From NCBI GenBank assembly GCA_012718945.1, contig JAAYBL010000114.1:1-39654 (forward strand): a stretch of DNA of 39,654 bases, written 5' to 3'. A program made the position numbers and the translations under genes. Numbering within the stretch: position 1 is the first letter of the stretch; each line of letters begins with the position of its first letter. Positions 27,704 to 39,132 of the stretch are shown one piece after another. The stretch comes from Bacteroidales bacterium (GTDB lineage Bacteria; Bacteroidota; Bacteroidia; Bacteroidales; UBA1402). The notes under the pieces are model-generated. The model searched no databases. It was not told the origin of the DNA and worked only from the letters and a program-made list of their open reading frames with translations.

Positions 27704-28234
27704 ATGCGCATTATCAGCGGTTTGTATAAAGGCAGGCGTTTCCAACTACCCAAAGGGTTGATGGCCAGACCTACCACCGACTTCGCCAAAGAGGGCTTGT
27801 TTAACTTGCTCAATAACAGGGTCGATTTCGAAGGCTTACGCATGCTTGATCTTTTCTCCGGCACAGGCAGCATCAGCCTGGAATGCCTCTCAAGAGGAGC
27901 TGATCTGATTACGTGCGTGGAACAAGTTCCTCTCCATGCCCAGTTTATCCGATCCGTAGCCAAACAACTGGAAGCAAACAACCTACACGTGATTCAAGGG
28001 GATGTTTTCACCTGGTTACAACGGCCCACAGGCTCCTTCGATTTGATTTTCGCCGACCCTCCCTACTCAGAACCCAGGCTGGAAAGCATACCGGACAGCA
28101 TCTTCTCCTCCACACTATTAGCCGACGAGGGCCTCTTCGTATTGGAACATTCGAAGAAAAACGACTTCAGCAAGCATCTGCGCTTCAAAGAGGAGCGCCG
28201 CTATGGCAACGTCCACTTCAGCTTTTTTACATAA
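27704..28234 (+). CDS. rsmD: 16S rRNA (guanine966-N2)-methyltransferase
   Basis: MRIISGLYKGRRFQLPKG.MARPTTDFAKEGLFNLL...LDLFSGTGSISLECLSRGA...LIFADPPY. Confidence 0.95.
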   Translation: MRIISGLYKGRRFQLPKGLMARPTTDFAKEGLFNLLNNRVDFEGLRMLDLFSGTGSISLECLSRGADLITCVEQVPLHAQFIRSVAKQLEANNLHVIQGDVFTWLQRPTGSFDLIFADPPYSEPRLESIPDSIFSSTLLADEGLFVLEHSKKNDFSKHLRFKEERRYGNVHFSFFT

Positions 28235-29669
28235 GAGGTCCGAAAAGGCGGCAAACTGATTCCGTCCACTTGACCACCCGGGGTCGTTTATTCCAGACAG
28301 CCGGATCAATCAACCTACAGTCTTTCATATCATTATGAAAGGTCTCCTTCATAAGGTGAGCAAAGGAGGCATCGTACATGAAAGCGTTCACTTCGAAATC
28401 CAGTTCAAAACTACGGTAATCGAAATTGGTGGAGCCCACGGTAGAGATGATGTCATCGGCCACCAACGTTTTGGCGTGCAGGAATCCCTTCTTATAAAGG
28501 TACACTTTGACGCCAGCATCCATTACTTCAGAAAAATGAGAGCGCATGGCTTGGGCTGTGAGGGGAGTATCTGTTCTGGCAGGCACCATGAGCCGCACAT
28601 CGACCCCGCTCAAGGCTGCCGTTTGCAAAGCCGTCAACAAGCTCTCACTGGGCAGAAAATAAGGTGTTTGCAGGTAAATGTAGCGCTTCGCTTTACCGAT
28701 AATACTGAAAAACGCTTGTAGAATGTTCTCCCAATCCGTGTCTGGCCCACTGGTAGCAATCTGCACCAGGCTCTTGCCTTTTTCGCTCAAATCGGGGAAA
28801 TAGAATTTGGAGGTCAACAGCTGACGACTCACAAAAAACCAGTCGATCAAAAAAGCGGTTTGCAAGCCATAGACGCCCTTCCCTTCAATCCGCACGTGGG
28901 TATCGCGCCAGACCTTGAACTTTCCCTTGCCCAGGTAACGGTCAGCCACATTCAAACCTCCCGTGTAGCCTATTTCCCCATCAATCACCACGATTTTCCG
29001 GTGATTTCTGTAGTTGAACTTGGGTGAAAGGTAAGGCAACAGCACTTTCAGGAACGGATAAACCTGAACGCCGGCGTCTTTCATCTCCTGGAAAAACCGT
29101 TTTTTGGTATGCCAGGAACCCATGTCATCGTACACCAGCCTGACTTCTACGCCCGACTTGGCTTTTTCAATGAGCAGTGCCTGCAATTGATGCCCGATAC
29201 GACCACTTTCGATGATGTAATAATCCAGGTGAATGTGCTTCCTGGCATTCCGAATATCTTCAAACAAGGCATCAAACGTTTCCTTCCCATTGGTAAACAA
29301 GCGCACCTCATTGCCCGAAAAAACCGGGTGTGTATTGTTACGACGGAGCAACTCGATGAGGCTTTCACAATTCTCGGGATACAGTGCCGGATCCAACTCT
29401 TCGTAGAGATAGGCAGGGTTGTTTTCGATGCTGCGGATACTTTTCTTGGAGATAATCTTCTTTTTTCGGTATCGCTGACCGAGGAAAATGTACAACAGCA
29501 GGCCCAGGTAGGGGAGGAAAATAAGCACCATAACCCAGGATATGGTCTTTACCGGGTTGCGGTTATCCAGCACCACAATCAGGATGGTTCCCACCAAGGT
29601 GAACAAATAGAAGGAATACAACAACCATCTGAACAGTTCGGGCCAGGAATCAATCGGTAGTTCGGGCAT
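28227..29669 (-). CDS. cls: Cardiolipin synthase (phospholipase D superfamily)
   Basis: N-terminal TM helices; two HKD motifs NHRKIVVIDGEIGYTGGLN and LHAKTLVADDIISTVGSTNFDYRS. Confidence 0.95.
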   Translation of the reverse strand: MPELPIDSWPELFRWLLYSFYLFTLVGTILIVVLDNRNPVKTISWVMVLIFLPYLGLLLYIFLGQRYRKKKIISKKSIRSIENNPAYLYEELDPALYPENCESLIELLRRNNTHPVFSGNEVRLFTNGKETFDALFEDIRNARKHIHLDYYIIESGRIGHQLQALLIEKAKSGVEVRLVYDDMGSWHTKKRFFQEMKDAGVQVYPFLKVLLPYLSPKFNYRNHRKIVVIDGEIGYTGGLNVADRYLGKGKFKVWRDTHVRIEGKGVYGLQTAFLIDWFFVSRQLLTSKFYFPDLSEKGKSLVQIATSGPDTDWENILQAFFSIIGKAKRYIYLQTPYFLPSESLLTALQTAALSGVDVRLMVPARTDTPLTAQAMRSHFSEVMDAGVKVYLYKKGFLHAKTLVADDIISTVGSTNFDYRSFELDFEVNAFMYDASFAHLMKETFHNDMKDCRLIDPAVWNKRPRVVKWTESVCRLFGPLM

Positions 29670-32640: not shown

Positions 32641-34992
32641 TCAACGGGTGACCCTGAACCAATCGACATCCATGAAGCCGCTGTCGTTTTTCCAGGCAGG
32701 TCTTGTACAGAAAAGTCCTACCTTGGCTCCTATCCATTGGCCTTCTCTAGCTTGGAATTCAGTACCAAGCGGTTTGTAAGAACGTCCATCGACACTGTAG
32801 CTAAACGTACAGTCACGCATGCCTTTGACGGCCACCCTCAGGTAAACCTCGTTGGAAGGCAAGGTCACCGATGCCTGTGACGATTCTGATGAGCCCTTAT
32901 CTGCCTTGGTACAGGATACCATGCTTAGGACATACCCTTCGGCGGTCTGACTCAACGATAACGCTCCGTAGTCCAAACCGATGATACCCAGACCACAGCG
33001 CTCACCCTTCATGGTTGGATTGGGTGAAAAACGCACCTTGGCTGTGGCTGTGAAATCGGGCGATGGAAATTTCTGCAGTAAAAGGTTGGGATAGAACAAC
33101 AAGTTGGGAACAGCCTCATCAGGGTTATCGGAGAAAAGACGTATAAATCCCTTATCACCGTGGAAGTAAGCCCAGGTTGGTTTAGGATTGGCATACCATT
33201 GCCATTGTTTGCCCAGCGTATAGCCGTCAAACTCATCACTTTCAGCCGGTGTGGCTTGAGGGAAAGTACGCGGCATGATCGGCTTTTTGTAGGTAGTCAC
33301 TGGTTCACCAATGCCATTTCCATCAGGATCCAGACCAATCACAGGCCAATCATTGATCCAGGTCATGGGCTGCAGGTGTACCACCCTACCCAACGGTTTC
33401 AGTTCCTGGAAATGGAAAAACCAATGCTCTCCTTGAGGCGTTTCCACCCATGCCCCCTGATGGGGACCATTTAATGGAGAGGCGCCTTGTTCCATCACAC
33501 GCCTGGCCTCGTAAGGGCCATAAACGGAGCGGGATCGCATGACCATTTGCCAGCCATCCTTGACACCACCTGCTGGGAAAAATACATAGTAGTACCCATT
33601 ACGCTTGTGGAATTTCGGACCTTCGCTCGTATCGTTGCCCTCGTGTCCGTCAAACACCAACACATCCTCCCCGATGACTTTTGAGGCGTCTGGAGACAGT
33701 TCACAAATAGCCAGGACACTTTTCATACCCTGCCGGCTGCCAGCATAGGCATGCACCAGGTACACCCGGCCATCGTCATCCCACAAAGGACTGGTATCAA
33801 TGGTTCCCTTGCAAGCCTTGACCAGCACCGGTTTCGACCAGGCTCCTTCCGGATCTCTGGTTTTAACCATGTAGACACCATGATCGGGATCCCCATAAAA
33901 AATGTAGTAAAAACCTGCGTGATAACGGATGCAGGGAGCCCAGACGCCACAACCAAGTTGGGGTTTTGAGAAAAAGTCCAATGGCTCTACGGCTGGCAAG
34001 GCATGGTTGATCAACGTCCAGTTGACCAGGTCGTAGGATCGCAAAATGGGCAAACCCGGTGCGCAGTTAAAACTTGAAGCCACCATGTAGTAGATCCCAT
34101 CGACCACACAAACATCAGGATCAGAGTAATCCGCATACAGAATAGGGTTTTTATAGCGACCATTACCCAGGTCTGGCGCCCAAACCTGCGACACATACGA
34201 CGAACTGTTCTTTTTCAATGCAGCGACCAAGGGCTTTATTTCCAAGGCCTCCAAACCATCAACAAAGAAACCGGCGACCACTTTGGCGCCCGATTCATTG
34301 AAATGGGTATTATCAGATAAGCCATTGGGGTACAATGGATTTTCACCAGCCGGCATTTGATGGAAGAATCGGGCTGAAGGCTCAACACCGACCGCTTCCA
34401 ACCATTGAGTCGTTTTGGCTTGCAAATCGATTATGGGGACTTTTTGATCCTTAGCCACTTTGCGGGTTAACTCAGGGTAGACACCATGTGTGTCAACAAG
34501 CTTTCCTTCAGCATCAAACTTCCGACGCATAACGGCAGTTGCCAGGATAGGGTGAGCGCCCTTTGCTCTCACATCCTTAATCATACGCACCAGGTTGGCT
34601 TCGTAGGCTTCAGGGCTGGTATACCGATCAGGCTTGTTGACAGCGCCATCGTTATGTGCAAACTGAATGACAACATAATCGCCTTTCATCGTGTTTGCCA
34701 ATAGCTTGTCCCACCAACCTTCTTCAATGAAGCGTCTGGTGCTGCGACCGTTCTGAGCCCAATTTTCCACTTTGACGCGGTCGGTAAAATGAGCTTGAAG
34801 CAACATACCCCACCCCTTTTCGTGAAAGGGTACCGGTGTTACTTCACCAGAAAGTGGGTTGATACTGTTTTTATACGCAGGCTTGTCTGCCATGGTGGAG
34901 TCTCCGGCCAGCAATAAGTGGACGGGGCGTTCGTTGGCTGCAGCAAAGAGTAGCGCAACAAGTGCTAGAATGACGACGGATACGTTTTTCAT
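32641..34992 (-). CDS. Secreted two-domain enzyme: SGNH (rhamnogalacturonan-acetylesterase-like, CE12-type) + GH43 + C-terminal beta-sandwich
   Basis: Signal peptide; LLLAGDSTMADK ... FAHNDGA ... DNTHFNESGA (SGNH blocks I, III, V), then NPILYADYSDPDVCVVDGIYYM ... IDTSPLWDDDGRVYLVHAY ... TSEGPKFHKRNGYYYVFF (GH43); start corrected to ATG 34992. Confidence 0.92.
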   Translation of the reverse strand: MKNVSVVILALVALLFAAANERPVHLLLAGDSTMADKPAYKNSINPLSGEVTPVPFHEKGWGMLLQAHFTDRVKVENWAQNGRSTRRFIEEGWWDKLLANTMKGDYVVIQFAHNDGAVNKPDRYTSPEAYEANLVRMIKDVRAKGAHPILATAVMRRKFDAEGKLVDTHGVYPELTRKVAKDQKVPIIDLQAKTTQWLEAVGVEPSARFFHQMPAGENPLYPNGLSDNTHFNESGAKVVAGFFVDGLEALEIKPLVAALKKNSSSYVSQVWAPDLGNGRYKNPILYADYSDPDVCVVDGIYYMVASSFNCAPGLPILRSYDLVNWTLINHALPAVEPLDFFSKPQLGCGVWAPCIRYHAGFYYIFYGDPDHGVYMVKTRDPEGAWSKPVLVKACKGTIDTSPLWDDDGRVYLVHAYAGSRQGMKSVLAICELSPDASKVIGEDVLVFDGHEGNDTSEGPKFHKRNGYYYVFFPAGGVKDGWQMVMRSRSVYGPYEARRVMEQGASPLNGPHQGAWVETPQGEHWFFHFQELKPLGRVVHLQPMTWINDWPVIGLDPDGNGIGEPVTTYKKPIMPRTFPQATPAESDEFDGYTLGKQWQWYANPKPTWAYFHGDKGFIRLFSDNPDEAVPNLLFYPNLLLQKFPSPDFTATAKVRFSPNPTMKGERCGLGIIGLDYGALSLSQTAEGYVLSMVSCTKADKGSSESSQASVTLPSNEVYLRVAVKGMRDCTFSYSVDGRSYKPLGTEFQAREGQWIGAKVGLFCTRPAWKNDSGFMDVDWFRVTR

Positions 34993-35008
34993 GATACAAA
35001 AGGTTGTT

Positions 35009-35887
35009 TTAGGCCTTGGATAAATAGGCGTTGAGTTGATCTCTGGGGATAAAATCGGTAGGCATGGGCATGTCGTACACCGATTTACGGACATAACGGC
35101 TTAGTTCATCCAAGGTTTTGAATGAAGCCACCTTCTCTGGGGTAATGAATTCGCCAATGCCGATGCGGGGGCGTTGTTTGGCTTTATTAAAGACTTCCCT
35201 GGGCATACGCAAGGAGCGTACACGCCAATTGATGACGCCCAGGAAATAAAAAAACGGAGAATTCTGGTCAAAAAAACGGATAGGCAACACAGGCACTTTG
35301 GCCATTTGAACCAATCGAATGATGGTCTCCTGCCATTCCCTGTCCCTAACTTTCATGTCTTTGAAGCGGAACATGGATACGGCACCTGCCGGAAAAAAAC
35401 CAACCGGATGGCCATCCCTCAAGTTGGACAGGGTACGACGAATGCCGTTGACACTATTTGAGGGATCATTTTCCTTTTTGCCGGTTTTGGGCCTGACAGA
35501 GATAAAATTGACATCCATGGCCTTAATGAGCGACAGAAACTGATTGACCATAACCTTATAGTCCGGACGCAAATCGGCCAAAAGGTCAATGAGCATGATG
35601 CCATCTATACCACCATAGGGATGGTTGGAAACAGTGATAAAGGCGCCTTCGGGTAGTAAACGCAACCGGTCGGGGTTACCAATCTGGTAACTGACACCCA
35701 AATCTTTCAGCAAACTATCGGCAAAAGCAGCACCCTCCATGTGGCAGGAACGCCCATATACCCAGTTTACCTTATCAATGGCAAAGGCACGCATGACAGT
35801 TTTGGCCAACTTATGCCCTCGCTCACCCCTAAAGATGGGAGACAGGCTTTCCATCACTTTCAAATCAATGACTTCGCGTTTCAACAT
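35009..35887 (-). CDS. Lysophospholipid acyltransferase (PlsC-like) family protein, NHPYGGIDG type
   Basis: ITVSNHPYGGIDGIMLID ... VGFFPAGAVSMFRFKD; PlsC/LPLAT blocks; start at ATG 35887. Confidence 0.88.
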   Translation of the reverse strand: MLKREVIDLKVMESLSPIFRGERGHKLAKTVMRAFAIDKVNWVYGRSCHMEGAAFADSLLKDLGVSYQIGNPDRLRLLPEGAFITVSNHPYGGIDGIMLIDLLADLRPDYKVMVNQFLSLIKAMDVNFISVRPKTGKKENDPSNSVNGIRRTLSNLRDGHPVGFFPAGAVSMFRFKDMKVRDREWQETIIRLVQMAKVPVLPIRFFDQNSPFFYFLGVINWRVRSLRMPREVFNKAKQRPRIGIGEFITPEKVASFKTLDELSRYVRKSVYDMPMPTDFIPRDQLNAYLSKA

Positions 35888-35897
35888 ACAAACTAAA

Positions 35898-36917
35898 TTA
35901 AGAATCAACCGGCAGCTTTGTAGACGTCTTGCCGTGAACTTTCATGAGCAGGATACCGACGCCCATCCAGAACAGTTCCCTTACCCTGGTAACCAGGCTA
36001 ACGTAAATACCCAACCCTCCTGACAAGGATAAGGCTCTGAATGCAATCAGGAAACCGCCCTCCCTGGTACCCACCTGCATGGGTGAGAAAAAGAGGATGT
36101 TGGTAAACAGGCTCATGAAGGTGTAGATAACCACCGATTGGATCAATGTCACTTCAGAAGTGACGGTAAGAAGGATGACATACACCTCCAGGCAGTTGCA
36201 CACGCGGGCAAAAAACTCAAGGGCCAGCGTTTTTAAAAAGGCCTTCCGCCGCTTGTTGTACAAATGCGAAATCTGGTGATCGATCAATATCAGCTTATCG
36301 TTGTACTTCATGAAAAAAGGCAGCACCCAACGTTTGAGATAGGGCAACTTACAACAGATATGAAAGAATCGCACGGTCATCCCCTTGCGGTAACCACGCC
36401 ACAATAAATACAAGAGGGCAGTGAAAAAGACAAAGGAGCCCAATAAGAAAATACGGAAATTCAACGGCACCGGCAAAAAAGCGACTGTAGCCAGAATGGC
36501 CAGTGTCCAAAACAAGAAATGAGCCGTCATGTGTGTCATGGAATACAAGACCACCGATGACGTGGCTTTTTCCACCCCGAACAAGGCCCTGAATTCGATG
36601 ATTTTGTATGGATCGCCACCAAGAAAACCCAGCGGTGTCGCCGCCTTCAAGGCAAAACCGCTGAGGTTGATTTTGAAGATGTGCAGAAAAGAGGCCTTGT
36701 GGTTGGCCGGGTCTTCATCCCTGACGATGGTCACAAAAGCCAGCGTGTTTATCAGGTAGATGGGCAACCACATACCGATAATGGCCAGAAACCACCAACC
36801 CGTTTTACACACATTGGAAACGATCTCGTTCAAGCCAATAGCCCATACCATGATCACCAGCGCCAAAAAGCCGATGATAAAAAAGATGTTCTGGGCGTTG
36901 AGTTTGAACTTTTTCAT
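35898..36917 (-). CDS. Lysylphosphatidylglycerol synthase-TM (UPF0104/YbhN-like) membrane protein
   Basis: ALKAATPLGFLGGDPYKIIEFRALFGVEKATSSVVLYSMTH ... FFSPMQVGTREGGFLIAF ... RVRELFWMGVGI, multi-TM. Confidence 0.88.
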   Translation of the reverse strand: MKKFKLNAQNIFFIIGFLALVIMVWAIGLNEIVSNVCKTGWWFLAIIGMWLPIYLINTLAFVTIVRDEDPANHKASFLHIFKINLSGFALKAATPLGFLGGDPYKIIEFRALFGVEKATSSVVLYSMTHMTAHFLFWTLAILATVAFLPVPLNFRIFLLGSFVFFTALLYLLWRGYRKGMTVRFFHICCKLPYLKRWVLPFFMKYNDKLILIDHQISHLYNKRRKAFLKTLALEFFARVCNCLEVYVILLTVTSEVTLIQSVVIYTFMSLFTNILFFSPMQVGTREGGFLIAFRALSLSGGLGIYVSLVTRVRELFWMGVGILLMKVHGKTSTKLPVDS

Positions 36918-36921
36918 CGTA

Positions 36922-37824
36922 TTAAGACGGATTCAGTGATTTGCACATGCGTTCATGACGCTTGATGGCAATGAACAAGAGGGGATTGAATACCAGTATC
37001 TCTACCGCAAAATAAATCCATTCCAGGTTGAGCACCAACGTGAGCAACATCACCAAACTGCGGCTATTGAACGTGAAAACATCTAACAAGGGCATCATTT
37101 TAAGGCTCTTAGCCCTAAAGGCATGCTTGACATCTTCAGGGTATCCATCAGGATACTGGCCGTTTAGACCACCCAGATAGCGCCTCAGCTCAGGCGTCTT
37201 GGATTCCTGGTTTTTCGTGTAGATGAAATACAGCTTCATCAGGATTTTTGCAACCGGCTTGTTCCACCCCAGGGCCTTGTATTTTTCCCGAACGTCGTCG
37301 GTACTGGAAAACTCACTGTTGATTCCCCCTTTTAGAAAATGCAGGTGCAGGGTTTTGTAGTAATCCACCATGCCGGCTTGGTTGAAATGCGAATAGGCAG
37401 ACGCCAAAGCAATCAGAATGGTCCACCAACCCCAGCCTTCGCTGTTGATGAGACGCATCGTCATGACGGTGTAGAAAGTCAGGAACCAGATATCGCCGCA
37501 GAAGCCATCGAGTATACGTCCCAATTCAGACTTAATGCCTGTCATGCGGGCTAATTGACCGTCTACGCAATCCAAGATGTTGGCAAACACCAACAAAAGA
37601 AATCCAATCAGATTGATCCACAAGGCATTGTCAGGGTAAAACAACAAGCAAGCGGCCACGCCCACGAAAATGGAAATGATGGTAATGGCGTTGGGGGTGA
37701 TGCCCGTGTTTCTCAGCAATAATGCCAGTTTGTAACCAATAGGGCGATAAAAGCCCCTATCGAGGTAGTTTTCAGTATCCCAGGATTTTAGGGAGTCTTT
37801 AAAGGAGGGTTTTTCTGTTGTCAT
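36922..37824 (-). CDS. CDP-alcohol phosphatidyltransferase family protein
   Basis: DCVDGQLARMTGIKSELGRILDGFCGD matches most of the CDP-AP signature; multi-TM. Confidence 0.9.
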   Translation of the reverse strand: MTTEKPSFKDSLKSWDTENYLDRGFYRPIGYKLALLLRNTGITPNAITIISIFVGVAACLLFYPDNALWINLIGFLLLVFANILDCVDGQLARMTGIKSELGRILDGFCGDIWFLTFYTVMTMRLINSEGWGWWTILIALASAYSHFNQAGMVDYYKTLHLHFLKGGINSEFSSTDDVREKYKALGWNKPVAKILMKLYFIYTKNQESKTPELRRYLGGLNGQYPDGYPEDVKHAFRAKSLKMMPLLDVFTFNSRSLVMLLTLVLNLEWIYFAVEILVFNPLLFIAIKRHERMCKSLNPS

Positions 37825-37834
37825 AAGAATCTAA

Positions 37835-38563
37835 TTACGCTGTTGCATAGCCACCGTCGCACACAATCACTTCACCGTTCATGTAGGTGTTGTGAATGAG
37901 CATCAGGTAAACCTCTGCCACCTCTTCCGGTGAGCAGAAGCGACCAGCGGCCAGCTTGTCGGTGATGTTGTTACGTATTTCAACCGGCTTGTTGCGATGC
38001 CAGTCGGTTTCCACAAAGCCAGGTGCAACGGCATTGACACGAATATGCTTGGGAGCCATAAACTTGACCAGGTTTTTGACCAAGGCATGTACGGCCGCTT
38101 TGCTGACTCCGTAGGACAGCGACATGGCATGAGGGTAAATACCCATCAGGGAGCCTGTAAACACAATGGCTGCCTGCTCGTTCATACGGTTGAAAAGACG
38201 TTGAATTAAAAAAACCGGGTAGTCAATATTGGCTGTAAAAACGCGTCGCCAACTCTCCGGTGTGATGGAAGAGAAGTCCGAACGGTCGGTCAGGCCGGCG
38301 TTGATGACCAACGCATCCAGCATCAGCCTGTGTTCATCCAGGAAAGTGTCAACGTCGGATAGACGACTCAGATCTGTACAATCTGCCTGTAGCGCGAAAA
38401 AACGTCCGGGAGCCTCTGAGGCGTAGGTTTCAGTTCGTTCTGCGGCTGTCTGGGTATCCGAACCAAACGTAGCCACAACAATCCAACCATCACTAAGCAG
38501 ACTTTCACAAACGGCGCGTCCAATGCCCTTTGTTCCTCCGGTAACTAAAGCAGTTTTGCTCAT
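37835..38563 (-). CDS. Short-chain dehydrogenase/reductase (FabG-like SDR)
   Basis: ALVTGGTKGIGRAVCESL, INAGLTD, SYGVSKAAV (YxxxK), IRVNAVAPGFVETDW, CDGGYATA. Confidence 0.94.
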   Translation of the reverse strand: MSKTALVTGGTKGIGRAVCESLLSDGWIVVATFGSDTQTAAERTETYASEAPGRFFALQADCTDLSRLSDVDTFLDEHRLMLDALVINAGLTDRSDFSSITPESWRRVFTANIDYPVFLIQRLFNRMNEQAAIVFTGSLMGIYPHAMSLSYGVSKAAVHALVKNLVKFMAPKHIRVNAVAPGFVETDWHRNKPVEIRNNITDKLAAGRFCSPEEVAEVYLMLIHNTYMNGEVIVCDGGYATA

Positions 38564-38614
38564 CAGCAGCTTGGTGGGTTGTAGGCAACAGCAAGGTAGG
38601 CCGTCCCTAATTAA

Positions 38615-39076
38615 CTATTTTTCCTTTTTAATGGTTTCAGGCTTGGTTTGTTGCACAGCCTTGAGGTGTTGTTCGTAGGTATCGTGGATGGTTTTTTTCA
38701 GTGAGGAAGAAGACACGCCATTGCCATAAGGGAAATAAAACACCTTGACGCCCATTTCCTCCAGGTAATCGTACTTGCCATTCCAATCATCGCCTACAAC
38801 GAAAGCATCAATGTGCAGTTTCTTGACAATTTCGGTGTGATCGAGTGTGTGTTGAGGAATGACAATGTCGGTGGCCTTGAGCGCTTCAATAATCTGGAAG
38901 CGTTCATTGAAGGGGATGATGGGAGGAGCCTTGTACGATGAGACCAATTCGTCGGTACTGACCCCTACAATCAGGATGTCAGCCAACCCCCTAGCGTAAT
39001 TGATCATTTTCAAATGGTTCGTATGGAACATATCAAACGTACCCGACGTATAGACGATGGTCTTGCTGTTAAACAT
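38615..39076 (-). CDS. TagD-like cytidylyltransferase (nucleotidyltransferase superfamily)
   Basis: VYTSGTFDMFHTNHLKMINYARGLADILIVGVSTDEL ... FVVGDDWNGKYDYLEEMGVKVFYFPYGNGVSSSSLK. Confidence 0.9.
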   Translation of the reverse strand: MFNSKTIVYTSGTFDMFHTNHLKMINYARGLADILIVGVSTDELVSSYKAPPIIPFNERFQIIEALKATDIVIPQHTLDHTEIVKKLHIDAFVVGDDWNGKYDYLEEMGVKVFYFPYGNGVSSSSLKKTIHDTYEQHLKAVQQTKPETIKKEK

Positions 39077-39124
39077 GGCTTACATTGATGTGTGAAACAT
39101 AATGGCTACGGAAACACATTACCG

Positions 39125-39132
39125 CAAAGGTA
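39125..39132 (-). promoter_or_regulatory. Putative -7 box (TACCTTTG) for the lipid operon
   Basis: Reverse complement of CAAAGGTA, 48 bp upstream of ATG 39076. Confidence 0.5.

Follow-up and report, generated by a model that had tools for sequence, protein, structure and literature searches.

One of the closest described relatives of the locus presented here is a putative alternative inositol lipid cluster of Bacteroides vulgatus and Prevotella, for which CDP-inositol was proposed as an intermediate, the gene functions being unconfirmed there (Heaver et al. 2022, PMC9246714). Our locus is a cluster of five genes in a 39,654-nucleotide stretch of DNA (hereafter the window) from a Bacteroidales bacterium (assembly GCA_012718945.1, contig JAAYBL010000114.1), which encodes, from its head, a TagD-like cytidylyltransferase, a short-chain dehydrogenase/reductase (SDR), a CDP-alcohol phosphotransferase (CDP-AP), an LPG-synthase-TM membrane protein (LPG-TM), and an acyltransferase. 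Like the B. vulgatus cluster, it combines a CDP-AP with a soluble activating enzyme of the cytidylyltransferase type and has an LPG-synthase protein nearby; unlike it, it holds no myo-inositol-1-phosphate synthase (MIPS), NTP transferase, ITPK-like kinase, or HAD protein, and carries instead the TagD-like enzyme, the SDR, and the acyltransferase. The inositol sphingolipid cluster BT_1522-BT_1526 of B. thetaiotaomicron likewise uses a CDP-AP to put a phospho-alcohol on dihydroceramide, as proposed below for the window, but by a CDP-diacylglycerol route with a phosphatidylinositol phosphate (PIP) intermediate, MIPS, and a PIP phosphatase (PMC9246714), and the window CDP-AP reaches only 30 bits against the BT1523 model. 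The ceramide phosphoglycerate pathway of Caulobacter (CpgA-D) also places an anionic three-carbon phospho head group on ceramide and uses CTP to activate a second unit, but it proceeds through a ceramide kinase, and CpgD belongs to COG1213, with no relation to TagD (PMC12275187). With TagD/TarD of teichoic acid synthesis, the window cytidylyltransferase shares its fold family, its CTP dependence, and its best Protein Data Bank (PDB) match, although its signatures and its partner, a membrane CDP-AP, are different. Finally, eukaryotic CEPT1 (CDP-alcohol and lipid alcohol) and the insect ceramide phosphoethanolamine synthase (CDP-alcohol and ceramide) work like the proposed CDP-AP, but with ethanolamine or choline head groups and with the canonical fourth aspartate (D4) of the CDP-AP signature.

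The five genes form a real operon; as the preliminary description had stated, and as the open reading frames (ORFs) confirm, all are tightly packed on the minus strand with intergenic gaps of 51, 10, 4, and 10 bp, and Pfam agrees with the family names given there to the five proteins. Judging from these sequences, the operon very probably specifies a CDP-alcohol route to a lipid head group. We give an even chance to a fuller reading, in which it would serve a sphingolipid, CDP-glycerol (or a related polyol) and dihydroceramide yielding a phosphopolyol ceramide that is then acylated. First, the TagD-like enzyme and the SDR would make a soluble CDP-polyol, with CDP-glycerol as the most likely product; for the SDR we propose the reduction of a keto compound on the way to the polyol, either a keto-phosphate before CTP activation (e.g., dihydroxyacetone phosphate) or a CDP-bound ketose after it. 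Transfer of the phosphopolyol by the CDP-AP would then turn dihydroceramide into phosphoglycerol-dihydroceramide, or something closely related, with release of CMP. The GlsA/OlsF-like acyltransferase would attach a fatty acid, the head group being a possible site, and the LPG-TM protein, for which we propose a part in lipid translocation or handling, would move the lipid.

Conservation of the operon and its phosphotransferase family

Orthologues of the cytidylyltransferase with at least 65% identity occur in 17 of 393 genomes of the order, the window genome counted, and the next match has 50%. In nine of these 17, as well as in genome G001, the gene heads a series cytidylyltransferase-SDR-CDP-AP-(LPG-TM)-acyltransferase; counted whether or not LPG-TM is present, the set amounts to 11 loci in 10 genomes, the window again included. 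Two further members of the genus and a second family also have the full five-gene set, and a third family (G407, G608, G690, and G751) keeps all genes except that of the LPG-TM protein, absent beside the cluster; G621 holds two copies of the cluster and G014 a doubled acyltransferase. Since one member of the genus (G002) is without the cluster, this is not a core trait of the genus, and since the set recurs at these 11 loci while flanking genes vary among genus members, it reflects more than chance adjacency, so that the gene-neighborhood search bears out the five genes of the preliminary description as co-conserved, with LPG-TM dropped in one family. A scan of named genomes returned a single relative (L061), in a Bacteroidota metagenome-assembled genome, and literature searches on phosphoglycerol-ceramide, CDP-glycerol, and cytidylyltransferase, which covered open-licence papers, led to the Caulobacter phosphoglycerate pathway and the inositol clusters but to no assignment of this operon.

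The CDP-AP matches PF01066 at 48.7 bits (gathering cut-off 22), and its family profile finds AF2299 first (7.2e-16) and CEPT1 next. CDP-APs related to it at 33-47% identity belong to a different, larger type of cluster, made up of an NTP transferase, a 286-aa protein without Pfam match, the CDP-AP, LPG-TM, HAD, and MIPS; the profile of the 286-aa protein leads to ATP-grasp inositol phosphate kinases of the ITPK type (7pup, 2.3e-7; ITPK1, about 4e-4). These sister clusters have the same gene content as the alternative inositol lipid cluster of B. vulgatus, including an LPG synthase and a CarboxypepD_reg protein (PMC9246714), and it is through this gene content that the window CDP-AP is linked to the family of B. 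vulgatus-type clusters. Because it thus shares a family with a CDP-inositol-type cluster close to the published putative one (PMC9246714), the architecture of our cluster is not free-standing. The earlier view that this is not an obvious phosphatidylethanolamine, phosphatidylinositol, or phosphatidylglycerol pathway holds for phosphatidylethanolamine, for which a separate PssA-like/Psd-like pair (judged from ORF translations) lies on another contig of the window genome, but has to be qualified by this kinship with CDP-inositol-type clusters.

In a tree of 35 CDP-APs, the window type forms one clade (100/99) nested in the NTP-MIPS type (supports 99/94 and 100/99), and this nesting makes a single change of head-group module the parsimonious history. 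In window-type clusters, the inositol genes are replaced by the cytidylyltransferase and the SDR, and HAD by the acyltransferase; an NTP transferase and HAD are absent beside the CDP-AP from all 11 window-type loci, and MIPS (PF01658) was not found in the window genome, which is 90% complete. Moreover, the window-type clusters of G690 and G751 adjoin PdxA and genes for 343-aa and 706-aa proteins, the same neighbors as those of the inositol-type cluster of G040, from another family, so that the exchange of an inositol for a polyol module may have happened in place. PdxA was set aside as a part of the pathway, being shared chromosomal context. We also rejected the idea that the ITPK-like protein is a version of the acyltransferase (hhalign probability 3%) and, as counterparts of the B. 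vulgatus cluster, both the weak Prevotella-like matches, which are PgsA-like, and the matches of family f72, for which two loci hold a 430-aa protein that matches the cytidylyltransferase profile and resembles PepM-CTP fusions.

From the full signature DX2DGX2ARX8GX3DX3D departs the window CDP-AP, which keeps the first three aspartates but has Gly at D4 and Asp one residue later (+5), and which is on this account a divergent branch by homology rather than a canonical member. D1, D2, the AR pair, D3, and the Asp one residue past D4 are strictly kept at 11/11 loci; throughout the branch, Gly at D4 is followed by Asp (all window-type proteins, most others) or Asn, and the canonical D4 Asp is found in more distant relatives (L080, L125, L136-L139, and a second protein of L067). 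The fourth Asp of known CDP-APs is thought to act as a base; here, either the neighboring residue would replace it, or the mechanism would differ. Structure predictions from two-sequence alignments were poor, with pLDDT of 39.5 for the CDP-AP and 47.6 for the cytidylyltransferase.

Several observations concern the sister clusters themselves. The Pfam-less family of the 286-aa protein (L070, 10271-11131, and 12 relatives) is a remote ITPK-like ATP-grasp kinase, constant in inositol-type clusters. G014 harbors both a window-type (L063) and an inositol-type (L081) cluster, and two products may therefore coexist. At L073, L074, L076, and L077, a class III aminotransferase and a GFO/IDH (IolG-like) gene are inserted in the inositol-type cluster, which suggests an inosamine head group; L073 additionally carries MlaD/MlaF/MlaE genes, as do L074 and L077 according to homology clusters. 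L072 (16495-18661) has a second CDP-AP (35%) and an SDR that matches the window SDR at 31%, in a genome with an inositol-type cluster, perhaps another head-group variant. A HisC/CobD-like pyridoxal-phosphate enzyme, a CDP-AP (28-29%, canonical D4), and an IPCT-like NTP transferase stand together in L067 (4333-7811) and L138 (8499-11154) as a possible CDP-ethanolamine-type head-group module, accompanied in L067 by a LysE-like protein and adjoining there a serine palmitoyltransferase (SPT). Lastly, L069 (7678-18058) unites in one run SPT, a 373-aa Pfam-less protein, an epimerase-type SDR, and the NTP-ITPK-CDP-AP-LPG-TM-HAD genes, and resembles a complete sphingolipid locus.

The probable activated alcohol and a proposed acylation

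The best PDB relative of the cytidylyltransferase is a glycerol-3-phosphate cytidylyltransferase (GCT; 1coz, 1e-21), and its 103 bits against the GCT equivalog TIGR01518 stay below the cut-off of 165.4. It has HTNH and YGNGVSSS in place of the HxGH and RTEGISTT of TagD; HxNH is common to the window protein and its orthologues with at least 65% identity (the first His being Tyr in the truncated L131), the subfamily has PYGxG(V/I/A)S where TagD has PRTEGIS, and HxGH is retained in TagD and in more distant homologues. Being below the GCT cut-off and without HxGH and RTEGIST, the enzyme may have a substrate other than glycerol-3-phosphate. Outside the lipid clusters, its orthologues adjoin Glyphos_transf (CDP-glycerol glycerophosphotransferase), LicD, or WecG-type genes, in the order cytidylyltransferase-SDR-Glyphos_transf-WecG at L126, and the proximity of Glyphos_transf and LicD favors CDP-glycerol or a similar CDP-polyol. 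Since Glyphos_transf was detected neither in the window genome nor in 9/10 carriers, the CDP-AP is the likely consumer of this CDP-polyol. Among the options for the head group, these sequences would tip the balance slightly toward glycerol. The Kennedy-like logic of the preliminary description, in which the cytidylyltransferase and the SDR supply a soluble CDP-alcohol to the CDP-AP, is supported, as is the co-conservation of the set.

The SDR, whose motifs TGGTKGIG and YGVSK are intact, occurs in all carriers, and most of the capsule-type loci with the cytidylyltransferase have it too. A role for it as ketosphinganine reductase was rejected, because it follows the cytidylyltransferase into capsule-type loci and because the SPT of the window genome adjoins an SDR of its own, for which KdsR is the best family (292 bits, cut-off 400), when KdsR is not among the best 25 families of the cluster SDR. 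On the same ceramide route, the head group could instead be another reduced polyol phosphate (C4-C6, e.g., ribitol or erythritol) from the SDR, activated by the cytidylyltransferase. We regard this as unlikely: the constancy of the SDR and the departure of the cytidylyltransferase from the TagD signature would suit it, as would the pairs of reductase and cytidylyltransferase that make CDP-ribitol, CDP-mannitol, and CDP-6-glucitol, the last two via reduction of a CDP-ketose, but these known pairs are PF01128 and PF01370 proteins (PMC10918830) rather than PF01467 with a classical SDR, and the best PDB and NCBIfam relatives of the window enzyme are GCTs.

In the acyltransferase, the motifs NHPYGGID and FPAGAVS are intact. 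Its closest named families are OlsF, whose acyltransferase half it resembles, and the lyso-glycine-lipid acyltransferase GlsA, but it scores below their cut-offs (143 bits vs 620 for OlsF; 119 vs 260 for GlsA, NF053697), and a true GlsA, in a GlsA-GlsB-like pair, lies elsewhere in the window genome. As Porphyromonas gingivalis has both plain and acyl-substituted phosphoglycerol dihydroceramides (PG-DHC) (PMC9045371), we propose by analogy that the enzyme acylates the new lipid, perhaps on its polyol head group.

Ceramide as the candidate acceptor

The window genome encodes an SPT (G000:C133, 3a2b match 5.5e-149). SPT, at 63-81% identity, is present in 10/10 carriers tested (including G694, with a divergent CDP-AP) versus 0/7 comparison genomes (six with the cytidylyltransferase in capsule-type loci, and G002; Fisher 5e-5), and among 60 relatives in 10/11 genomes with the CDP-AP family versus 15/49 without (Fisher 3e-4), the contrast being weaker in a phylum sample (18/19 vs 279/377, Fisher 0.03); these Fisher tests ignore phylogeny, the comparison genomes are non-random, and genomes and thresholds were of our choosing, which counts against the sphingolipid reading. 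In G032 and G249 (loci L067 and L069), SPT lies physically inside the sister cluster, which independently supports a part for the CDP-AP family in sphingolipid synthesis. Given this distribution and this linkage, ceramide is the likely acceptor.

Were the acceptor diacylglycerol or another glycerolipid, the product would be a Kennedy-type phosphatidyl-polyol and not a sphingolipid. CDP-APs such as CEPT1, one of the family-profile matches, do use diacylglycerol, and Heaver et al. propose it as the first acceptor of a related CDP-AP (PMC9246714), but the distribution and linkage of SPT and the PssA/Psd-like pair available for phosphatidylethanolamine argue against this alternative, which we hold to be improbable. 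It is very improbable that the CDP-AP is no longer canonically catalytic and that the operon yields a non-lipid product such as an envelope glycan, as Gly at D4 and the capsule-type orthologues might suggest, in view of the strict conservation of the other signature residues at 11/11 loci, of the acyltransferase and the link to SPT, which favor a lipid, and of the lack of a detected polymer transferase (Glyphos_transf) in 9/10 carriers.

Other points also tell against a phosphoglycerol ceramide made by this operon. The CDP-AP signature is without its fourth Asp, the cytidylyltransferase is below the GCT model and without two TagD signatures, and an SDR would be superfluous in a plain CDP-glycerol route. 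Two genomes with a close CDP-AP, G445 and G023 (the latter 61% complete), show no SPT at the cut-off. Finally, PG-DHC is made in Porphyromonas, where the cluster is not shown to occur.

With regard to the wider family, we tentatively suggest, at somewhat less than even chances, that a modular family of CDP-alcohol:ceramide phosphotransferases exists in Bacteroidota, with a D4-less active site and with exchangeable activation modules that would set the head group, namely inositol (MIPS, NTP transferase, and ITPK-like kinase) or, in the window, a glycerol-like polyol (HxNH cytidylyltransferase and SDR) with later acylation. If so, the window would be a first genetic candidate for acylated phosphopolyol ceramides and would point to genes for making this lipid class in the phylum. 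Plain and acylated phosphoglycerol dihydroceramides are immunologically active lipids of Bacteroidota, and no gene attaching their head group is named in the open-licence papers searched; an operon in which a glycerol-like unit takes the place of inositol around a single CDP-AP family would be a direct candidate for it, and the same swap would provide a rule by which sphingolipid head groups could be predicted from genomes.

Coordinates and neighboring genes

Table 1. Position of the operon features in the window, with the basis of each assignment
Feature	Position	Strand	Basis
TAnnTTTG promoter-like box TACCTTTG	39125..39132	-	49 bp upstream of first ATG; weak basis
TagD-like cytidylyltransferase, 153 aa	38615..39076	-	PF01467 (CTP_transf_like) 3.6e-17; TIGR01518 103 bits; 1coz 1e-21
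HTNH nucleotidyltransferase signature (HxNH, not HxGH)	39014..39025	-	alignment with orthologues
Classical SDR, 242 aa	37835..38563	-	PF00106/PF13561 (adh_short/adh_short_C2) ~1e-40
CDP-AP, 300 aa	36922..37824	-	PF01066 (CDP-OH_P_transf) 1.4e-12; family profile; tree
CDP-AP signature DCVDGQLAR-x8-GRILDGFCGD	37492..37572	-	alignment
LPG-synthase-TM (flippase-like) membrane protein, 339 aa	35898..36917	-	PF03706 (LPG_synthase_TM) 1.1e-23
GlsA/OlsF-like O-acyltransferase, 292 aa from ATG at 35887	35009..35887	-	PF19576 (Acyltransf_2) 6.7e-21
Acyltransferase motif NHPYGGID	35603..35626	-	N88, H89, P90, G92, D95 invariant in nine carriers' proteins

The TAnnTTTG box reported at the head of the cluster is present but carries little weight, as the window holds 29 such boxes where 21 +/- 4.5 are expected and two further copies lie within the first two genes (39034-39041 and 38464-38471). 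The cluster start formerly given as 34992 is to be corrected, this position being the ATG of the next, unrelated gene, and the acyltransferase ORF spanning 35009-35887. That downstream gene (32641-34992) encodes a GDSL esterase fused to GH43 and GH43_C2, a plant-polysaccharide enzyme; neither it nor the upstream fragment accompanies the set, other genes flanking the cluster in the genus member G003. Elsewhere in the window, positions 28227-29669 encode a PLD-type protein, probably a cardiolipin synthase, next to a divergent 359-aa protein (DHQ synthase); G003 keeps the two together as well, there placed on the opposite side of its cluster-bearing contig region.

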